Origin: Triatoma infestans
Taxonomy: Eukaryota; Arthropoda; Insecta; Hemiptera; Reduviidae
Assembly (NCBI GenBank): GCA_011037195.1
Contig: JAAEAF010001988.1
Location: forward strand, 46,741-110,740
Direction of reading: 5' to 3'
Length of the DNA stretch: 64,000 nucleotides
In this document: one piece after another, positions 5,442 to 61,519 of the stretch
Layout of the letters: each line of letters begins with the position of its first letter
Position numbering within the stretch: position 1 is the stretch's first letter
The notes under the pieces: model-generated
Told to the model about the DNA's origin: nothing
The model's input: only the letters and a program-made list of their open reading frames with translations
Database searches by the model: none
Position numbers and translations under genes: made by a program

Positions 5442-6428
5442 TGGATGTTGCGTTTATAATTCCATTTCTCTTTAAATAATATATTAATGACTGTTTAACA
5501 GTTGTCTCTAAAGAACATATTCATATCATCCTCAGTATCTTTCATTTATACCATCCCCGCTTACAATTTACGAAATAGAAATAGAGAATAAAATTAATTT
5601 TTTAGACATGACGATTATCCGTGAAGAAAATGGTTCTCTTAATACTAACGTTCTGCTGGATTCCTCCATTTCCTTTTCAATCATCCATATAATCAAAAAA
5701 TTACCTTTGTTAAATTTTTTTCCAAACGTGTACTTCATCTTAGCCATCCCCATTTCCATGAGGACAACAAATTAAAATTATCCAAGATATTTAAAAATAA
5801 TGGCTATATTCACCATGTAATACATAAAACAAGTAATATACATCAACTATCCACAACTAATATGATTAATCAAATCCCGCCTATGCCTTCCTTATCCTAT
5901 ATCTCTATCCCATGCATAGAGGATCTATCAGAAAAATTAGCTAAAATCTTCTAAAAAATATCACATCTCCATCGCTCAAAAAAACTCCAATCTCTAAGAG
6001 AGATTTATTTACTTTCTTTTTTCTGGCAAGTAGGAAAAGAAGAATGTATTTCCTGGTGATTCAAGGGATATAAACTACGTAATTTGCCGTCAATTGTCAT
6101 TAGAAACATTAAATCTGTCTAAGTACATATTTTGTCGTCAATTTTGACAGTTCGTCATGCTGAATATGCCCATTAGCTGGACTATTATCTAATACAGTTT
6201 AATATTCCCCTTTATTTTTTGAACAAAATCTAATTTTAATATGTGTAAATTTAAACGAAATTACTATTATTTTTTTTCATCCGACAACAGATAGTAAATT
6301 TTTCAGGAGATGTGTAATTTTAAATTACGTTAATTTAATTTGGATTTTTCCAATCGCAAAGAAAATTTTAAATGTTAAGTTAAATATAACTCATTCTAAT
6401 TGAATGTTTTTGCAATGAAGCATGCATC

Positions 6429-7415: not shown

Positions 7416-8157
7416 CGAGGTGTGTAAATTAAGTAATGAGACTGATTTTCAAGTGTTCGATCTGGCAATACTGGAGACGCGGCGCATGCGTGGTAGGGCA
7501 AGTAAACATCTGATACACGTCCAGTGCAAATTTGAAAACGCTAGAGTTGTTGCACTGTCCGTAGTGACTTTTTTTGTGAGCAAGGTTTTTTCAGTGCGTT
7601 TTAAAAATGAGTGTCATCAGGTTTGTGCAACGTTGTGCTATCAGGTTTTGCTTCAGACTTGGGCACAGTGCAACGGAAACGTTTGAAAACTGTGCCAGGC
7701 CTATGGAGACAATGTTTTGTCGAGAGCACAGGTTTTTAGGTGGTTTAAGTGGTTTGCAGAAGGAAGGGAATCAATTGAAGACAAGCCTCGCAGCGGAAGG
7801 CCTTCATCTTCAAGAACCGACGAAAATGTTGGCAGAATCCGCGATCTCGTGCGTACAGATCGTCGTTTGACAGTCCACTGTCGGCGAAGAGTTGAATTTG
7901 ACTCACACAACCGTTCATCAAATTTTGACTAATGAATTGGGGATGAGAAACATTTGTGCAAAAATGGTTCCGAAAAATAGTAGTAGAAAAATAGTATTTG
8001 GCCAGTATTTCGCCACTGCTATAACGAATGGACGAATCGTCTTCAGCGTTGTGTGGCTTCCCAAGGTAGTTACATTGAAGGGGACAATTTGAATTGTAAT
8101 TTTATTTGAATAAAAAAAGATAAAAAATCAGTCTCATTACTTAATTTACACACCTCG
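7416..8157 (+). mobile_element. Mariner element, internally deleted
   Basis: A complete Tc1/mariner-type element by its ends. The terminal inverted repeats are identical over 34 bp (starting CGAGGTGTGTAAATTAAGTA) and the element sits between TA dinucleotides at 7414-7415 and 8158-8159, the expected TA target duplication. At 742 bp it is shorter than a full-length mariner (about 1.3 kb) because the transposase is deleted internally. Identical ends with a broken gene suggest it was moved in trans by another copy. Confidence 0.93.
7607..8099 (+). pseudogene. Mariner transposase relic: DNA-binding half and last residues only
   Basis: Starts MSVIRFVQRCAIRFCFRLG at 7607. After a frameshift near 7684 it reads SRAQVFRWFKWFAEGRESIE and KPRSGRPSSSRTDENVGRIR, the mariner helix-turn-helix and its GRP linker. 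A second shift near 7872 restores EELNLTHTTVHQILTNELGM and CAKMVPKN (to about 7978). The reading then jumps to the C-terminal residues NRLQRCVASQGSYIEGDNL at about 8030-8085. The whole catalytic DD34D domain (the GDE, HDN and SPDL blocks) is missing, so the protein could bind ends at best and could not cut. Two frameshifts add to the damage. Confidence 0.9.
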
Positions 8158-9092: not shown

Positions 9093-10541
9093 TGTTACGT
9101 ACTTGCAAGCTCGGTAAGTAGTTCATCCGGCACCAACAGATGGTTTCCGGGAATTTAGAACACTGCAGGCACTCCGTAAGGAGACCATAGGCAGTTCTTG
9201 CTGTAATGAATAAAAGGGTGGGGCAACAAAGACAGAAAAAGCACCAAGTCAAAAATAACAATAAGTTTATTGATGAACAAGCGATTCTCCAGTTCTCCCG
9301 CCTCACATCCGAGCTGGAAAACGAACGTTGACAAGTGGGTACGCCCTGGGAATTACTCTGACTGTCTGAATGGCAAACAATCCCTTCCAGGACTGTCCAC
9401 AGGTTGCTGAAGAAAGGATGACTTCACATCCGTCGGAGGACCAGCAGGTGGTAGACCCTGCGAAGCTGTTGGCACAAGAATAAATATGTAGGAAAATAAG
9501 GCTAAAGACAGAACTGCAAATTCTCAAACTGGGTTTGAGAAAATATAAAATCACACTAGGAGGTCGACTAAGAGAAGTTAAAGAGAGTATACTTGCCTTA
9601 AAGTTACAGCCCCTCACGCCTCCTTTAATCAGAATTTGTTCTATCTGGTGTATAGAATACGTTTCCCCGGAACGTATAAGTTGAGCAGGCAGTGAAGAGT
9701 CACTTAGCTTTGAATTATAGAGAAATAGTTAATAATACAATAAATATTAAGCTGAGACTGAAGGCACTGATAAAAAAAATAAAATAATAAGATTGGTTAC
9801 CTTCAGAGCGATTTCAATTATCGCATAAATGGCATCTGCCAGCTTATAATAATACTGAATAGTGAGTAAAGATATAAAGGAGAGGAAAAAATGGGATAAG
9901 TATCTTACTCAGAATTAGTTGAATAAAGTTAGTACAAGCCACTTGCATCCGCCAGAGATTGACGCTATCTGAGTTGGTGAATCGTGTAATCACCACTGCT
10001 GAATAGGCCCTTAATGAGCGTTAAACTGTAAATTAAATGATCACCTGACTGCTAGAAGTATTAAAAAAACGTGAGGCTGCAACTTTACGCAGTAAAAGAA
10101 AAGTATGATACTGCGAATTGAAGGTACGCCACAAGAAAGCGTGGAAAAAACACTTAAATAATAAGCTTGATATGTACCTGTGCAGACACACAATAAATGA
10201 ACCTCAATACAAACGATTTGTAAATAATAATTAGTAAAAAAGGGCGGTCTGGTTAATAGCGTCGCACTGCTATGCTACTCAACTACATGTGAACTATTTG
10301 AGCAGTACTAGTAGACTACTGGTGGCGTCGGTATCGCCGATCACGATAAGAAGTGTCAGTCAGCGCTCAAATGACGAAATTTTTAAATAATTAAGTATGA
10401 CAGTGCTCTGGGTGACGAGAGTTACAAGTAGTGCCACTCATTTGATTGCCATTAGCGCAATCTATTGATTTTTTATCGACCCAGTTACGTGTTCCTTGAA
10501 TTTTGTCAAAAGCCACCCTTAAACCCCAGGAATACGTAACA
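9093..10541 (-). mobile_element. Putative solo LTR with CTAT target duplication
   Basis: Bounded by TGTTACGTA at 9093 and TACGTAACA ending at 10541, a TG...CA pair of inverted termini, and flanked by the 4-bp direct repeat CTAT (9089-9092 and 10542-10545). A 4-bp duplication fits Ty3/Gypsy-type integration. On the minus strand an AATAAA signal (about 9262) lies near the 3' end, so minus orientation is preferred. The ORFs inside (9082-9306 and 9303-9617, minus) have no recognisable domains. At 1.45 kb it is long for an insect LTR; a non-autonomous DNA transposon with short terminal repeats is the alternative. Confidence 0.55.
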
Positions 10542-10635
10542 CTATCCATCTTCATTTGTTGTGGTGGTTGGTTCCGCAGAGCTGGAAAACATCAGAGACA
10601 TTTTCCGTGGTAGCCTACTTCATTTTGTGATTATC

Positions 10636-10665
10636 GACCGGTTTCGAGCGTTCGCTCATCTTCAG
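10636..10665 (-). ncRNA. Minimal hammerhead ribozyme motif (stem II GAGC/GCUC)
   Basis: On the minus strand: CUGAAGA, an extra U, stem II GAGC-GAAC-GCUC, GAAA, then the palindrome ACCGGU and C at the cleavage position. All invariant core residues of the hammerhead (C3 to A9, G12-A15.1, U16.1, H17) are present. Compared with the other copies, the second stem II pair is A-U and not G-C, with both strands changed. Stem III has no loop, so cleavage would need pairing of two RNAs through ACCGGU. Stem I has four possible pairs (CAUC with GAUA/GAUG). Confidence 0.7.
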
Positions 10666-10789
10666 GATGCGTTTGTCGACAGTGTGATAACACAGACTTG
10701 CACAGAGCAAATTCAGTTTATACACTGACTGGTCTTTTTTGGTTGTATTTTAAAAACTTTAAAGTATCACACTATCTGACAAACGCATC

Positions 10790-10819
10790 CTGAAGATGGG
10801 CGAACGCCCGAAACCGGTC
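10790..10819 (+). ncRNA. Minimal hammerhead ribozyme motif
   Basis: CUGAAGA at 10790-10796, one extra U, stem II GGGC-GAAC-GCCC, GAAA, and ACCGGUC. Stem I can pair CAUC (10786-10789) with GAUG (10820-10823) exactly beside the core. This is the best-preserved copy in the window. The one departure from the textbook hammerhead is the unpaired U between A9 and stem II. Confidence 0.75.
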
Positions 10820-10867
10820 GATGAAAATCGACTCTACCATGGAAAATGTCTCTGACATCTTTATTTG

Positions 10868-11859
10868 GTTAAGCATTGTGTGCGAAATGTCCTCGCTGAT
10901 ATTGAAGTTTAAGAAAAATTATTTTCCCAAGGATTGAAAAAGCTAAAGAAAATATTCAAGAAGGCCAGCGACCTAGAGAACTTTTGGAGATTTGATAGTA
11001 AGGCCCGAATTATGCCTTGTGAATTCCTTAATTTAACTAAAAATTGAAGACTTCTTGTCAATGTTCAGTAAAATGATCAACGACAGGTCTTGTTAAGTGT
11101 TATGAGAATTATTCAAGGAAACATATTATTTTAATGTAATTGACAATTAAATTTTGATCTCATACTTCGTCAAATAATTAATAATGATAATAAGAGGTGG
11201 GGAAAATTTTTAATTTCCTCGTCAACACGGAGCTCCACGTCCCAAAGTTCAATTGGCATGACATAACCTCAAGTCTGAAGTTATTATAGCTCTTACTATT
11301 CCATGAACCGAAAACGAAACTCTTAGACTCTTAGAAAAATGGTATTAAGGGAAAGTAAGCATGTAAGCGTGGTCAATAGCAATATTAGTTATTTATTTGA
11401 CAAGAGAGGTGGCAAGTGAACGAAAGTTGTAAAGAACTTTTCTCTAGAGTTAAATATTCATTTTTTTCTACAATCGTATTAAATTGGTTCTTGATTTTTA
11501 TGAACTTACAAAAAATGTGAAAAGGTGCAACTATTGAGAATTACATTACATTTACACACTAGTGAGAGAAAGTAGTGTGCAACTCACTAGTGAGAAAAAA
11601 TAGAACTTGCGTCACATTATTCAACGATTGCAGAAAAAAAATTGCTCTCCCTTTTTGATCGGTTCAACCGTTAAAGAATTTAGTATCTGATTACTGTCGA
11701 CTTCAACCACACTGGAAAATGAAAGAGAACATGTCAGTTGATACGTGAAATCTAGTAAACGTCTTCTTACTTTTCAGAGACTGGTGCCGCAAAATCACTC
11801 GACTGGTGTCCGGCAGTCTACCACGATGCTCAACGGTGGTCCGGATCGGGCTATTAGTG
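10868..11859. other. No gene recognised
   Basis: AT-rich. A CACTAGTGAGA direct duplication occurs near 11559-11594; nothing else is identifiable. Confidence 0.5.
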
Positions 11860-15037: not shown

Positions 15038-16052
15038 GAAAGTATTTTTATAGTCGTTTATTATTAAGCAATCTTTAATCTTCAGGAAGCATTAATGAGA
15101 ATTAAATATGTCAAATACAGGAAATTGTGTATTTGAAGAAAAATCAGTTGACCGAATGTGCAACGGGTATCACTAAGCATGGGTTCTCACTCTGCATGCA
15201 TGGATTTGAAGGGTTTTCTGGAAGAGGCTGCAAGAAGATGTTTCATTCTAATACTGACGTCACTTAAATTTAGTATAAATTCCGAATTTGGAGAAAAGTG
15301 TCAGTAATAACTTCGTAAGTTGCAGTAAGAGAAAGTCATGTGATTGTGTCACACTAATTTATTTATTTATTTTTTTTAACAAGCGGAAGAGGTGCTTACA
15401 TACAAAAATAAAATGGTGTGCATAGGAATGCAGAGGTGCACAGGAGACTCCAGTCTGTTATATCATTGGCATGTCTCCTTTTTCCAAAACTAACAATGGC
15501 AGCGATAGGGCATTTTTTAAGTTGCTCTTGCCTGCTCAAAAATTGTTTTCAGCTACTATATTTAGAAGCTCCGAATCCTTTCGCATAGAGTCACTGTATT
15601 TTTGTTTCATTTAGGATGATGTCTTGGACCGAAATGTGGAAATTCTAAAGCTATATACAGGGTATCTCAAGGTATATGGATAACGACTTTTTCTCGGAAA
15701 CTAAGATAGCTAGAAAAAAAATTAAAAAATATGTGTCCCCTTAGTGTTTTGTTAGAAAACCAAATATAATTTGCAATTAATTTGTTTTGGTGCTTCCAGA
15801 AGCGAGATACAGGCATCAACTTCATTTTCTTAAATAGGGAGATGTGGTTTTTATTTAAGAAATAGATTCCTCTATTTTTTTGTATGAATAATTTACTTCA
15901 ACGGTTTTTTTCTTTGAGCGATATTTTACAAGTTATGAATGAAAACATGATTCCTATAAGAAAGTTCAAAAATGATATTATAACGGTTTTTTTGATTGAA
16001 TAAGAAGAAAAGTACTATTTTATTATAAATTTTACTCCTCATTATTTACAAA
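15038..16052. other. No gene recognised
   Basis: AT-rich; ACAGGGTATCTCAAGGTATA near 15658 resembles termini of several insect DNA transposons but no second end was found. Confidence 0.4.
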
Positions 16053-16166
16053 TCTTGCTCGAACTGGCCTCCACCATTAGAGATGTATTTCTTTGGTCGT
16101 AAGATACAATTGGCAGGAAAAATCATGTGTTTGCATCTCTAATGGTGGGGGCCAGTTCGAGCAAGA
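16053..16166. repeat. 33-bp near-perfect inverted repeat
   Basis: Arm 16053-16085 (TCTTGCTCGAACTGGCC...AGAGATG) and arm 16134-16166 are reverse complements with one mismatch, separated by 48 bp. The region is otherwise AT-rich, so these GC-richer arms stand out. The transcript would form a long hairpin. Confidence 0.8.
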
Positions 16167-17290
16167 TCTGTAATTTATTTTGAAGTTCCAGGTTTTTACT
16201 TTCCCTGGGAGATTTTCCGCCTTATCTACTGCTACACATACACCAATAAGATATCCCAATTTTTTCAAATATCTTTAACAATTCCGTTACGCTATTTTTT
16301 GGTTTTTCTAACTAGCCCCAACATTCGCACCAGAATGTTTCGTTTAAATCAGTCAAGCCAATTTGTTGATATCAATTGGTTCATTAGATTTTTGCAGATT
16401 TCAATTATAGTGCAATGACTTTCGGAAAACATTTCAATCCTGGTAAGAAACAATATTCAGCCATAATCCTACTTAGTTCATCTAGTTTTCATTTGCTGAT
16501 AGGCGAAAGTACTTGGTAGCCTTTTGTTCTTCGAGGCTACTGTCGTAGTAACGCGCCCATGTGGAATTTATCACGAGTGAGACGCATCAGTCCTATTAAC
16601 GCATCTTATGCCCTTCCCAAAAATGATATAAATTAGTGACCGTCAAAAATGCAATTTACCTAAAATTTACTGCCGGTTTGCACCAAAAATATTAAAGATG
16701 AAGCCTACCTCCTTAAATAACCAATGGGTAATTATCCTAAATAAAACATAACATAAGAAACCAGAAATAATTAAATAATATAGAGATAATGGATGTTAAA
16801 TTAGTTTTGTATATAACATTTGTAGATATTGAGTTTGTATTGTGTATTAAATAGCAAAGGTTGGTTGTACGTTGTACAGAACAGGGTGGCACGTTATAGT
16901 TCTAACTCGGCTCCCTATTACCAAGTTCTGACCACAGCTTGTAATTAATGTGTTTTGTTGTTTCTCCAGCCCTTTTGAGCTAAACATGTTCCTTTGACCT
17001 AAAAATATATATTACATTTTAACTAAATCAACTTATATTACAAAAGAGATAATTAATAATTATAACAAGAAGTTTATATTTCATTTATTTAAAAAAAAAA
17101 AAAAAAAGGTATGAGATTCTCACACGACTTTTATAATGCAATTCTAATCCTCTCACGGTGAAGTGAAAAAATAGCCTTTCAGTTACGGAACAAAATTTTT
17201 GATTGGACATTTCTTATCGATAAATGAAACGGAGAATACGTCCTGATAAAACACAATAGCGACTTTTACCAATTAACTAATTCTATATCT
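16167..17290. other. No gene recognised
   Basis: No domain-bearing ORF; poly(A) near 17092-17107. Confidence 0.5.
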
Positions 17291-23945: not shown

Positions 23946-24139
23946 CTCATAATTATTTATTTATTTTTTTTATTTTTTTTATCATTCCATATAAATGGCC
24001 ATTTAAGATGTTTTGCAAAAAATAATAATAATAATTTTATTTATAGAATTAAATTTCCACCCATCTGGCCACGTCCCTTGACCTAATTTAAGAGTTTAGT
24101 TTTTTAAAAATACTGTTAAATCAGTTAGTTGAAACTAAG

Positions 24140-24290
24140 TTTGCTCTGTGCATGTCTATGTTGTCACACTGTCTGAAAAACGCATCCTGAAGATGGGCGA
24201 ACGCCCGAAACCGGTCATTTAAAAAAAAAACAAAGATGACCACAAAATGAAGCAGGCTACCATGGAAAATGTCTCTGATAGGGAAGAAAA
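24140..24290 (+). repeat. Single arm of the hammerhead foldback element
   Basis: Carries TGCTCTGTGCATGTCTATGT, CACACTGTCTG, the hammerhead motif, then a 10-A insertion, AAAATGAAGCAGGCTACCAT and the terminal GGAAAATGTCTCTGAT. It matches one arm of the elements at 10559 and 60259. The opposing arm is absent. Confidence 0.75.
24187..24216 (+). ncRNA. Minimal hammerhead ribozyme motif, stem I weakened
   Basis: CUGAAGA, extra U, GGGC-GAAC-GCCC, GAAA and ACCGGUC are intact. The 3' side of stem I is AUUU, where a complete copy has GAUG, followed by an A-tract that interrupts the element. Stem I would be weak. Confidence 0.65.
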
Positions 24291-44902: not shown

Positions 44903-46256
44903 AGTTTCGTGAAGCTCATCTTCCGTCATCCTACCGGCCAATCAGTTTACTACCTATCATGGGTAAGGTACTTGAACGGCTCCTCTTCAAACGAATCTTT
45001 CCTCTTTTAGAAGGTTTTCTTCCAAATCATCAGTTTGGTTTCCGTAGCTCCCACTCACCAATTCACCAGTGCCACCGCCTTATTGACACCATCTCATCTG
45101 CCCTTGAGCAGAAGCAGTATTGCCCGGGTGTCTTCCTGGACATCGCTCAGGCGTTTGACCGGGTTTGGCATGCGGGTTTGTTGTGGAAGCTCAAGGGAGT
45201 CCTTCCCTCTCCCTACTATATGATCCTTAAATCATACCTGTCTGATCGTTTCTTCTGGGTTCGTTCTGGCTCCTCCAGATCTTCTATCCTTCCAATCTCT
45301 GCAGGTGTACCCCAAGGCAGTGTCCTTGCTCCTCTCCTATATATTTTCTATACTGCAGATATTCCTTTCCACCCAAAAACAATCCTTCATTCCTACGCTG
45401 ATGACACATGTGTTATTGCTCCAAATCCCGATCCTGTTTCCGCATCCCGTGCACTACAATCCCATATCATCTCTCTACAAGACTGGCTTATCCGGTGGAG
45501 AATAAAGGTCAATCCCACTAAAAGCAAATGCGTTTCCTTCACCCTCCGCCGCGCTACTCTCCCGCCCATCCTCCTTCATGGGACTATAATACCGACAGTG
45601 GACAAAGTCCGATATTTAGGACTTTATCTAGACAAAAGACTTACTTGGAATCCGCATACACGATTAAAAAGACTTGAACTAAACAGACGTTACAAACTTC
45701 TCTCGAGACTACTTGACCGACGCTCTAAACTTTCTCTTGAAAACAAAAGTCTTATCTACAACACTATTATAAAGCCCCTCTGGACGTACGGATGCGAGGT
45801 CTGGGGTTCGACCAAGCATTCCAACACATATCGCATTCAAGCTTTTCAATCCAAAACCCTCAGAAGAATTACCAATGCCCCGTTCTATGTTTCCAACCTA
45901 ACCCTTCACAATGACCTCAAAATCCCTTTTGTTCATCAGTTCATAAAATCACGTTACAAGAAATTCCATAACCTCATATCCAACCATTCTACCCTTTAGT
46001 CCAACAACTCTCTTCTCTTTCTATTCCACACAACCCTTCCAGGAGACAGAAACGCCACTGGCCGCGCGACCATCTAACTCTTGTTAGCATTTTATAGCAA
46101 TAATTAGGGAGTACCTCCACTGGGAGGCATCTCCTAACAAGACATTCACGCCCTTTTTTATGTCACTACTATCATATTCACTCATAATACTGTTTGTATA
46201 GTTGTGAATTTCTTAATAAAACGAAAAAAAAAAAAAAAAAAAAAAGTTTCGTGAAG
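44903..46256 (+). mobile_element. Young 5'-truncated Jockey-like LINE with intact target duplication
   Basis: Flanked by identical 12-bp direct repeats AGTTTCGTGAAG at 44903-44914 and 46245-46256. Element body 44915-46244 has the reverse-transcriptase reading frame open from its first bases, a 3' untranslated part, an AATAAA signal at 46215-46220 and a poly(A) tail of about 22. Exact target duplication, an unbroken frame and a clean tail mark a recent insertion by target-primed reverse transcription. Confidence 0.95.
44917..45999 (+). CDS. Jockey-type reverse transcriptase, C-terminal 360 codons
   Basis: Enzyme part of a non-LTR retrotransposon ORF2 that would copy its mRNA onto nicked chromosomal DNA. 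The frame opens at the truncation point with YRPISLLPIMGKVLERL, so the Met at 44959 is internal. Counting from that Met: FGFRSSHSP near 26-34, FLDIAQAFDRVWH at 59-71 (catalytic Asp 61), AGVPQGSVLAPLLY at 115-128, YADD at 146-149 (catalytic Asps 148-149), RYLGLYLDKRLTW near 218-230, and YGCEVWGS near 274. No stop or frameshift up to the TAG at 45997-45999. The N-terminal endonuclease, ORF1 and promoter are missing, so the copy is not self-sufficient. Decayed relatives lie at 58005 and 63420. Confidence 0.93.
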   Translation, partial: HLPSSYRPISLLPIMGKVLERLLFKRIFPLLEGFLPNHQFGFRSSHSPIHQCHRLIDTISSALEQKQYCPGVFLDIAQAFDRVWHAGLLWKLKGVLPSPYYMILKSYLSDRFFWVRSGSSRSSILPISAGVPQGSVLAPLLYIFYTADIPFHPKTILHSYADDTCVIAPNPDPVSASRALQSHIISLQDWLIRWRIKVNPTKSKCVSFTLRRATLPPILLHGTIIPTVDKVRYLGLYLDKRLTWNPHTRLKRLELNRRYKLLSRLLDRRSKLSLENKSLIYNTIIKPLWTYGCEVWGSTKHSNTYRIQAFQSKTLRRITNAPFYVSNLTLHNDLKIPFVHQFIKSRYKKFHNLISNHSTL

Positions 46257-60246: not shown

Positions 60247-60302
60247 ACACGCTATACATCAGAGACATTTTCCTTGATAGCCTGCTTCTTTTTGTGGTCA
60301 TC

Positions 60303-60332
60303 GACTTGTTTCGGGCGTTCGCCTATCATCAG
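60303..60332 (-). ncRNA. Hammerhead motif, stem III lost
   Basis: Minus strand: CUGAUGA is canonical, stem II AGGC-GAAC-GCCC (three pairs plus A-C), GAAA present, but the palindrome reads ACAAGU and not ACCGGU, so stem III cannot form with itself. Confidence 0.6.
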
Positions 60333-60622
60333 AATGTTTTTGCCAAACAGTGTTATAACATAGACTTGCAAAGAGCAAATACAGTTGATACATTGGATTT
60401 AAGTGCTTTTGTTATGACCTACCTAGGTTAAGAGGGGTGTTGCTACCTGAATGGGAAAACAATTATAAGGACACATAAAGGACCGAAACATAGTTTTCCC
60501 ATTCAGTAGCAACACCCCTCTTAACCTAGTTAAGTCATAACAAAAACGTTTTTAAAATCCAGTGAATCAACTGTATTTGCTCTGTGCAAATCTATGTTAT
60601 TACACTGTTTGACAAAAACATC

Positions 60623-60652
60623 CAGATGATGGGCGAACGCCCGAAACCGGTC
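60623..60652 (+). ncRNA. Hammerhead motif, U4 mutated
   Basis: CAGAUGA in place of CUGAUGA (core U4 to A), then GGGC-GAAC-GCCC, GAAA and ACCGGUC intact, and GAUG for stem I. Expected to be inactive. Its partner arm has the reverse defect. Confidence 0.6.
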
Positions 60653-60857
60653 GATGACCACAAAAAGAAGCAGGTTATCATGGAAAATGTCTCTGATGCT
60701 TTCCAGGTCTGCAGAACTAACCAGAACAACACGCTATACACATAGTTCTATAACCTTATTAACCTCCTACATACAGTCAACCAGTATGGTTTGTGACTTA
60801 AACTTATATTTAAAAGATGTTAGAGTTTACGTCAAAAAATTGATAATAAACCTTACT

Positions 60858-60920: not shown

Positions 60921-61160
60921 GTTGTGGTCAAAGCTGGAAAGCATCAGAGACATTTTTCGTGGTAGCCTGCTTCATTTTGTGATCATTGACCGGTTTCGGG
61001 CGTTCGCCCATCTTCAGGATGCGTTTTTTAGACAGTGTGACAACACAGACTTGCACAGAGCAAATTCAGTTTTTCACACTGACTGGTGTTTTTAACTGAC
61101 AGTTAAGCAGACTAACAGTTTAGGCACAAAATGAAGCAGGCTACCACGGAAAATGTCTCT
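60921..61160. mobile_element. Hammerhead foldback element with perfect 15-bp target duplication
   Basis: Flanked by GATAAAATCATAGGA at 60906-60920 and 61161-61175, identical over 15 bp. The left end is GTTGTGGTCAAAGCTGGAAA and the left arm carries the hammerhead. The right arm is reduced to AAAATGAAGCAGGCTACCAC and GGAAAATGTCTCT. It sits inside an older subfamily-2 repeat, whose sequence resumes exactly after the duplication (TGTTATCCAGCATTGTGGAC). Confidence 0.9.
60988..61017 (-). ncRNA. Minimal hammerhead ribozyme motif
   Basis: Minus strand: CUGAAGA, extra U, GGGC-GAAC-GCCC, GAAA, ACCGGUC complete. Stem I can pair AUC-side bases with AAUG (three pairs). It lies in the most recent of the inserted elements by its duplication. 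Confidence 0.7.
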
Positions 61161-61175
61161 GATAAAATCATAGGA

Positions 61176-61519
61176 TGTTATCCAGCATTGTGGACCCAAC
61201 CACATATTCAACAACAGGCAGCCAAGCGGACACCACTATGAGGATATAAGACATTCAAAACAAGATTTTACGTACTACTACAATAATGTCCCTAGTATAT
61301 CACTAACACAACGCTCCACACACCGATTTCCTATTCATAAACGAGTCTGACAGAACAACTCTACACAAGATTCCACAGCAAACTACTCGTAGGTATACAC
61401 TAACTGTCCTCCCTCAAAATACCTGGGAATCCTTCCAAACGTTTAAAGCGGCGCTGGCCAAGAAACCTCCTGATCGAGCAAGAGACGTAACCCCTGTCAA
61501 CGGATTGAACCCCTAAAAT
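61176..61519. other. Continuation of subfamily-2 repeat; no gene
   Basis: CCAGCATTGTGGACCCAACC near 61183 matches 8500-8520 on minus. The rest to 61510 is less AT-rich with short frames (for example PQNTWESFQTFKAALAKK) but no known domain. Confidence 0.4.

Follow-up and report, generated by a model that had tools for sequence, protein, structure and literature searches.

A foldback repeat in the Triatoma infestans genome is a head-to-head pair of Penelope-type retrotransposon ends

Results

The foldback and its parts

The window is a 64,000-nucleotide stretch of Triatoma infestans DNA (contig JAAEAF010001988.1), and a 0.3-kb foldback within it was the subject of this analysis. The inverted-repeat search returned three pairs of inverted arms in the foldback, 10633-10677/10778-10822 (45 nt, 96% complementary), 10592-10613/10834-10855 (22 nt, 95% complementary) and 10678-10689/10765-10776 (12 nt, 92% complementary). 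The foldback is therefore real, and the ends given in the original prediction were correct within a few bases, judging from the flanking duplication (Table 1). This 12-bp duplication, with its one mismatch, was recognized by eye, and the automated scoring took only its unbroken 6-nt part. The two ends of the insertion are unequal, one arm being about 33 nt longer. The original prediction had the inversion right but overlooked the unequal ends, as well as the size of the family, whose motif copies number at least 39,720 genome-wide, including four more in the window. The foldback is two Penelope-type retrotransposon ends placed head to head, a common and abundant kind of fragment. Reading frames for reverse transcriptase (RT) and GIY-YIG were absent from the window copy; the 297-bp element has no room for either, as expected for a copy of the end only.

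Table 1. Positions of the foldback, its parts and further family copies in the window
Feature	Position	Strand	Details
Entire insertion, a head-to-head pair of Penelope-type pseudo-LTR ends	10559..10855	.	297 bp
Left target-site duplication CATCTTCATTTG	10547..10558	.	By eye; one mismatch to right copy
Left arm with tail	10559..10728	-	Profile match 10562-10728, profile positions 3-170, 170.8 bits; outer end by eye
Tail, about 33 nt, AC-rich, sense end ...CGGAACCAACCACCACAA	10559..10591	-	As in the family; tail type of PMC11167929 and of the available part of PMC3846280
Hammerhead-like core CTGAAGATGAGCGAACGCTCGAAACCGGTC	10636..10665	-	Pattern match and letters
ATG of PLE reading frame within motif	10657..10659	-	Stop at codon 15 in window copy (MSERSKPVDNHKMK, then stop)
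Centre between arms	10729..10764	.	36 nt
Right arm, 5'-truncated, short end CTCTGA	10765..10855	+	Begins at profile position 42; profile match extends to 10867, i.e. into the flank
Hammerhead-like core CTGAAGATGGGCGAACGCCCGAAACCGGTC	10790..10819	+	Pattern match and letters
Right target-site duplication CATCTTTATTTG	10856..10867	.	By eye
Single-arm family copy	24128..24281	+	Profile match
Another head-to-head pair	60247..60724	.	Arms 60247-60394 minus and 60560-60724 plus; profile match
Probable additional head-to-head pair	60928..61201	.	Minus arm 60928-61082, weak plus arm 61125-61201

Further copies and other features in the window

The conserved hammerhead core that had been predicted for both arms is present, far above chance. 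Six places in the window match the degenerate core pattern (≤3 mismatches), four of them beyond the foldback's own two, and 100 shuffles of the window gave zero matches. The additional pair at 60247..60724 has one short and one tail arm and shares the flanking word ACACGCTATACA. Nested in its centre is an inverted repeat (60407-60545, 40 nt, 95%) that resembles, by eye, the longer upstream pseudo-LTR of other copies. The weak plus arm of the probable third pair scored 42.1 bits, below the 60-bit filter, so that its minus arm was counted as single.

Several other features were noted in the window. A frame at 7717-7932, which we take to resemble the start of a mariner-type transposase, has weak helix-turn-helix matches (HTH_32 and HTH_29), both below the Pfam cut-off. 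At 44905-45999 lies a 364-codon reverse transcriptase frame (RVT_1, E 3e-36), presumably of non-LTR type; its nearest protein is from Triatoma infestans (63%), and those named among the best ten hits are mostly hemipteran. An inverted repeat at 16041-16178 has 45-nt arms that are 91% complementary and 48 nt apart.

Family size and locus sample

In the 941-Mb assembly (13,959 contigs), the core pattern with ≤2 mismatches occurred 39,720 times (19,953 + 19,767), and the same pattern read backwards occurred 0 times. Loci were taken from 100 exact-match places, the first listed among the 39,720; 88 loci were read, and 86 without overlap were used together with the window. As a result of this choice, core preservation in the sample exceeds the family average, and the contigs listed first are over-represented. 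An arm profile was built from 137 arms, and 153 arms of at least 60 bits were kept. The arm counts exclude 17 profile hits below 60 bits and another 6 that came from overlapping loci (L006, L029, L090).

Pair geometry and the one-tail rule

Among the 86 loci and the window, 51 of the 66 neighbouring arm pairs, at any distance, were head-to-head, 6 were tail-to-tail and 9 direct. Genome-wide, exact cores lying 120-150 nt apart were found head-to-head at 769 places and tail-to-tail at 0. Head-to-head is thus the rule for the family. The ends of the 153 arms fell into two classes, separated by about 33 nt, with the longer end in an AC-rich stretch. When ends were assigned by sequence anchors, 44 of the 49 close pairs had one tail and one short end. 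Two of the other five were scored short+short but have a decayed tail by eye, and three have an unanchored arm. Compared with one half, the one-tail pairing (44/46) gave P = 1.5e-11. With ends taken from the profile only, the 49 pairs comprised 39 tail+short, 6 tail+tail and 1 short+short, besides 3 with an 'other' end; the 6 tail+tail pairs turned into tail+short only by the sequence anchors. The original prediction was right to single out the inverted layout as worth following.

Outside any close pair were 55 of the 153 arms. An inverted tail end was found within 600 nt upstream of 7 of the 34 short-ended single arms, or 6 when L074, where it is the tail of a neighbouring pair, is set aside; an inverted short end lay upstream of 3 of the 34, and two of these three arms (L074, L022) also had an inverted tail further out. 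For the tail-ended single arms (n = 20), none had an inverted tail end and one had an inverted short end. No two of the 66 tail-ended arms were alike just past the tail, indicating that the sampled arms are end copies.

The arms have lost variable lengths on their central side. In 19 of the 49 pairs, the inner arm limits differed by over 5 positions, and the centre measured at least 24 nt in 22 of the 49, part of some centres being longer upstream pseudo-LTR. For overlapping centres, joining at an inverted word of 6 nt within the arm was weighed and dropped, as the L034 junction, read by eye, does not contain it.

Target duplications

A shared flanking word of at least 8 bases was found in 36 of the 49 pairs, compared with 3.5% of 959 mismatched flank pairs. 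In these 36 pairs the words span 8 to 15 bases, and the commonest length is 12. The duplications are AT-rich (76%, against 66% for the loci), and in most pairs one duplication pair encloses both arms. Across single arms, a repeat of at least 10 bases was observed in 16 of 55, versus 0-4 in shuffles, and at least one of those 16 (L052) is repeat sequence and no target duplication.

A common source RNA is indicated for the two arms of one insertion

An initial comparison by identity never placed an arm's own partner nearest (0 of 49 pairs) and gives no support for a common source; it included flank columns and was confounded by age. At transversion sites that mark subfamily haplotypes, on the other hand, the arms within a pair were discordant in 0-14%, versus 26-48% if independent, and transversion differences between paired arms at other sites amounted to 4.7%. 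Rare alleles common to own pairs numbered 17, against 1-11 in 20 shuffles. In nine pairs picked as young, arms differed by 2.5% within and 5.6% between insertions. Because haplotypes and rare alleles are shared, the sequences point to one and the same source RNA for the two arms of an insertion. Different templates for the two arms, which the differences between the arms of the foldback had suggested, were rejected on these counts.

Penelope-like identity and the GIY-YIG link

Judging from its sequence features, the window element is a pseudo-LTR end insertion of a Penelope-like retrotransposon (PLE), an assignment that draws on partial copies, none of them full-length with the sampled end. 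The ends about 33 nt apart among the 153 arms correspond to a pseudo-LTR with the optional 30-40 nt 3' tail of PLEs. The reading frame starts within the pseudo-LTR, at hammerhead stem II, where the ATG of the motif opens it; the L008 copy reads MGERPKPVDDHKMKQATTENVSDAFQLCGTNHHN without a stop. Target duplications of variable length were seen in 36 of 49 pairs, and the window insertion has one of 12 bp with one mismatch. Moreover, coding sequence for GIY-YIG is linked to the end elsewhere in the family. In L033, L041 and L076, GIY-YIG matches over the Pfam cut-off lie on the strand of the arm, 881, 727 and 726 nt upstream, respectively, which places the sampled pseudo-LTR end in a GIY-YIG element. 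These linked copies are partial, and the coding part of L041 is split over two frames. The 1.4 kb upstream in L041 is common to L040 (95.7%) and L076 (91.2%), and partly to L026 and L033. Genome-wide, there were 38 GIY-YIG matches among 150 scored candidates.

The same genome contains an open 809-aa frame at L093:577-3003, with GIY-YIG over the cut-off and RVT_1 0.3 bits below it. L093 gave no match to the pseudo-LTR end profile and is a different Penelope-like element family. Its PLE-type frame was used as tblastn query against the 87 sampled sources, five of which matched (L001, L033, L041, L076 and the window). The window match (5572-5951, plus) is weak, covers residues 548-685 of the L093 protein (28-39% identity, E 4.5e-9) and probably marks a decayed PLE coding remnant. 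In L001, PLE protein matches at 182-893 minus (E 3e-12 and 5e-5) lie downstream of a same-strand arm and contain a stop.

The hammerhead-like motif

Both arms read CTGAAGA-T-GRGC-GAAC-GCYC-GAAACCGGTC. The minimal type I core (CUGANGA / stem II / GAAA / NUH) can be recognized in each of them. The original prediction named the parts of this core correctly and overlooked that, in both arms, CUGANGA and stem II are separated by an additional U. This U is part of the AUG. With a core and almost no helix III, the motif belongs, as predicted, with the minimal hammerheads of dimer type that Penelope-like elements are known to carry. Cervera and de la Pena in 2014 and Lunse et al. in 2017 reportedly described such minimal type I hammerheads in PLEs.

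The Rfam hammerhead families gave no match in the window at gathering, and none up to E = 10 in 10500-10900, 10780-10835 or 10625-10680, the last two being short stretches of the arms. The GAGC/GCTC form of stem II had been read as a compensatory change and as evidence for a constrained RNA structure. The letters exist. All four states of the second stem II pair were counted genome-wide with the exact 20-mer, giving 18,048 G-C, 601 G-T, 446 A-C and 18 A-T copies. The 18 double mutants compare with 14.9 expected (odds ratio 1.21, P = 0.25); the doubly changed pair thus occurs about as often as it would if the two transitions arose independently, a matter of chance, and the change was rejected as structural evidence. 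The covariation test that had been proposed over genomic copies, run on the 153-arm sample (146-149 usable per pair), placed pairing in stems I and III at the level of shuffles. Stem II was nearly invariant; for two of its four pairs, 9-18 and 11-16, the observed value was reached by just 11 and 4 of 500 shuffles, in arms that were chosen by exact core and include the window's own copies.

For transcripts of the foldback, folding predicts a single extended hairpin on either strand (-151.2 and -149.9 kcal/mol), in which the ribozyme core pairs with its own complement. By this predicted folding, the foldback looks a poor ribozyme unit on either strand, contrary to the ribozyme on both strands that had been proposed. 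The motif is probably a passenger of the PLE start-codon region with no special role in the foldback, and it may act on PLE transcripts, with predicted cleavage, as dimers or with the help of protein.

The exact motif pattern had 0 matches in prokaryote and viral contigs, and a looser pattern matched two viral contigs. These IMG/VR contigs carry hammerhead-like CTGANGATGG...CCGAAACGTCG motifs at L091:9803-9832 minus and L092:6730-6764 plus. Stem II is fully complementary, with 5 and 6 pairs by eye, and the motifs sit between listed ORFs, the one in L092 overlapping an ORF end by 4 bases. Neither matched an Rfam hammerhead at gathering. They could be chance occurrences or unlisted phage hammerheads.

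Discussion

Much of what the sampled copies show is known from other PLEs. In Anolis carolinensis, the protein of a PLE of the Penelope/Poseidon clade (PAc) cleaves and extends both strands in vitro, its ORF begins at hammerhead stem II, the cut falls 26 bp after the ATG, and two RT start sites bound a 30-40 bp tail at AT-rich targets (PMC11167929). The Triatoma copies resemble PAc in the hammerhead at the border of pseudo-LTR and ORF, the tail, the AT-rich targets and GIY-YIG, and the AC-rich start site lies 111-118 bp into the ORF in PAc (PMC11167929) and about 100 nt into it in the sampled family. Unlike PAc, the 66 tail-ended arms of the sampled family stop at the tail, often in head-to-head pairs. 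For Penelope of Adineta vaga, the available part of PMC3846280 describes inverted pLTRs with head-to-head as the most frequent orientation, a tail optional on one of them, target duplications of 8-10 bp and a pLTR that holds the first ORF codons. All these features recur here. However, the Adineta copies in that text mainly bear ORFs, whereas the sampled family comprises tens of thousands of end copies under a near-strict one-tail rule.

As for the motif, available portions of PMC6155905 and PMC7761336 report that the pLTRs of PLEs contain minimal hammerheads lacking helix III, of which animal genomes hold thousands of dispersed copies. These and the accessible text of PMC7229834 portray minimal type I hammerheads in which helix III is nearly absent and which presumably work as dimers; the sampled motif is of this form and may differ from them in the additional U that separates CUGANGA from stem II. 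Metazoan retrozymes are likewise short, non-coding repeats that carry type I hammerheads and may be mobilized by PLEs, but are direct tandem repeats with canonical hammerheads in what is accessible of PMC7229834, whereas the sampled family forms inverted pairs with the PLE start-codon region, and direct neighbours make up just 9 of its 66 pairs. That PLE ends occur inverted, that their tails are optional and that PLEs carry minimal hammerheads has thus been published; the new part is the near-strict one-tail rule, which was not found stated with counts in the literature covered, some of the key papers among it.

The best explanation, and in our view a likely one, is that the foldback is the pseudo-LTR end of a PLE, inserted by reverse transcription primed from both sides. 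The PLE protein would cut both target strands about 12 bp apart, and from each of the 3' ends a cDNA would be primed on sense PLE RNA. The AC-rich tail site would be the start for one cDNA, and the short site, some 33 nt closer to the RNA 5' end, for the other; both would extend towards that 5' end. The two cDNA ends would then meet and be joined at the centre, in many cases after truncation or with filler, giving the order tail, arm, centre, inverted arm and short end between target duplications. Priming of both strands of a staggered cut on sense RNA would yield head-to-head arms and target duplications; it would also yield independent truncation at the centre and leave no tail-to-tail case. 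The one-tail rule needs an extra step, because start sites are alike between the strands in vitro (PMC11167929). We infer, besides the two-sided priming, that the two starts are coupled, e.g. by two subunits placed differently on the RNA.

The strongest rival is self-priming, proposed for Adineta vaga in the accessible part of PMC3846280, in which an antisense PLE transcript or cDNA would fold back at its 3' end and copy itself into a palindrome. Head-to-head orientation would follow, and shared arm haplotypes are as expected from one copied template. A copied arm should, however, share the outer site of its template, and 44 of 49 pairs combine a tail with a short end. The differing inner limits (19/49) and the long centres (22/49, some of them partly upstream pseudo-LTR) also argue against it, and short-ended single arms with only an inverted-tail remnant would be unexpected. 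We consider self-priming rather unlikely.

Far less probable is a DNA transposon of foldback type, or a MITE, bounded by terminal inverted repeats, even though inverted ends, short size, target duplications and high copy number would all fit one. Its terminal repeats should be equivalent, yet one end is about 33 nt longer in 44 of 49 pairs; the arms are variably truncated from the centre, 55 of 153 lie outside close pairs, and the shared flanking words vary from 8 to 15. Moreover, the ends fit published PLE start sites and GIY-YIG lies upstream of some copies. We give similarly little credence to selection for a functional hammerhead that would be present in sense on either strand, as the original prediction had it. 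The conservation of the core (0.961, against 0.886 in the upstream and 0.934 in the downstream part of the arm) seems to favor it, but this comparison is biased because the sample was chosen by exact core match. There is no genome-wide covariation and no Rfam match, the predicted transcript is a hairpin, and the layout would be explained by insertion. Two independent insertions, side by side or nested, are hardly credible despite the preference of PLEs for AT-rich DNA and their possible entry into their own ends (PMC11167929), since one duplication pair surrounds both arms in most pairs, the arms share haplotypes, and tail-to-tail neighbours, which would be equally frequent, number 6 of 66 and, genome-wide, 0 against 769.

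Returning to priming from both sides, we see about even chances that two-sidedness is built into PLE insertion, with both target strands primed in every event on RNA from one source, and that head-to-head pseudo-LTR pairs are the normal PLE product, with tail and short starts both obligatory and 'solo' ends arising where one cDNA was aborted.

For the reading of repeats in general, a paired change between the arms of one repeat is no evidence of covariation until single mutants are counted. The mode of PLE integration is unsettled, and inverted ends have so far been explained by antisense self-priming. With some 39,700 short copies in one genome, rival insertion models become testable by counting, and the near-strict combination of one long and one short end per pair is a clue to PLE insertion. 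If such pairs are indeed the normal product, the tens of thousands of short copies would be the complete record of an asymmetric two-sided reaction.
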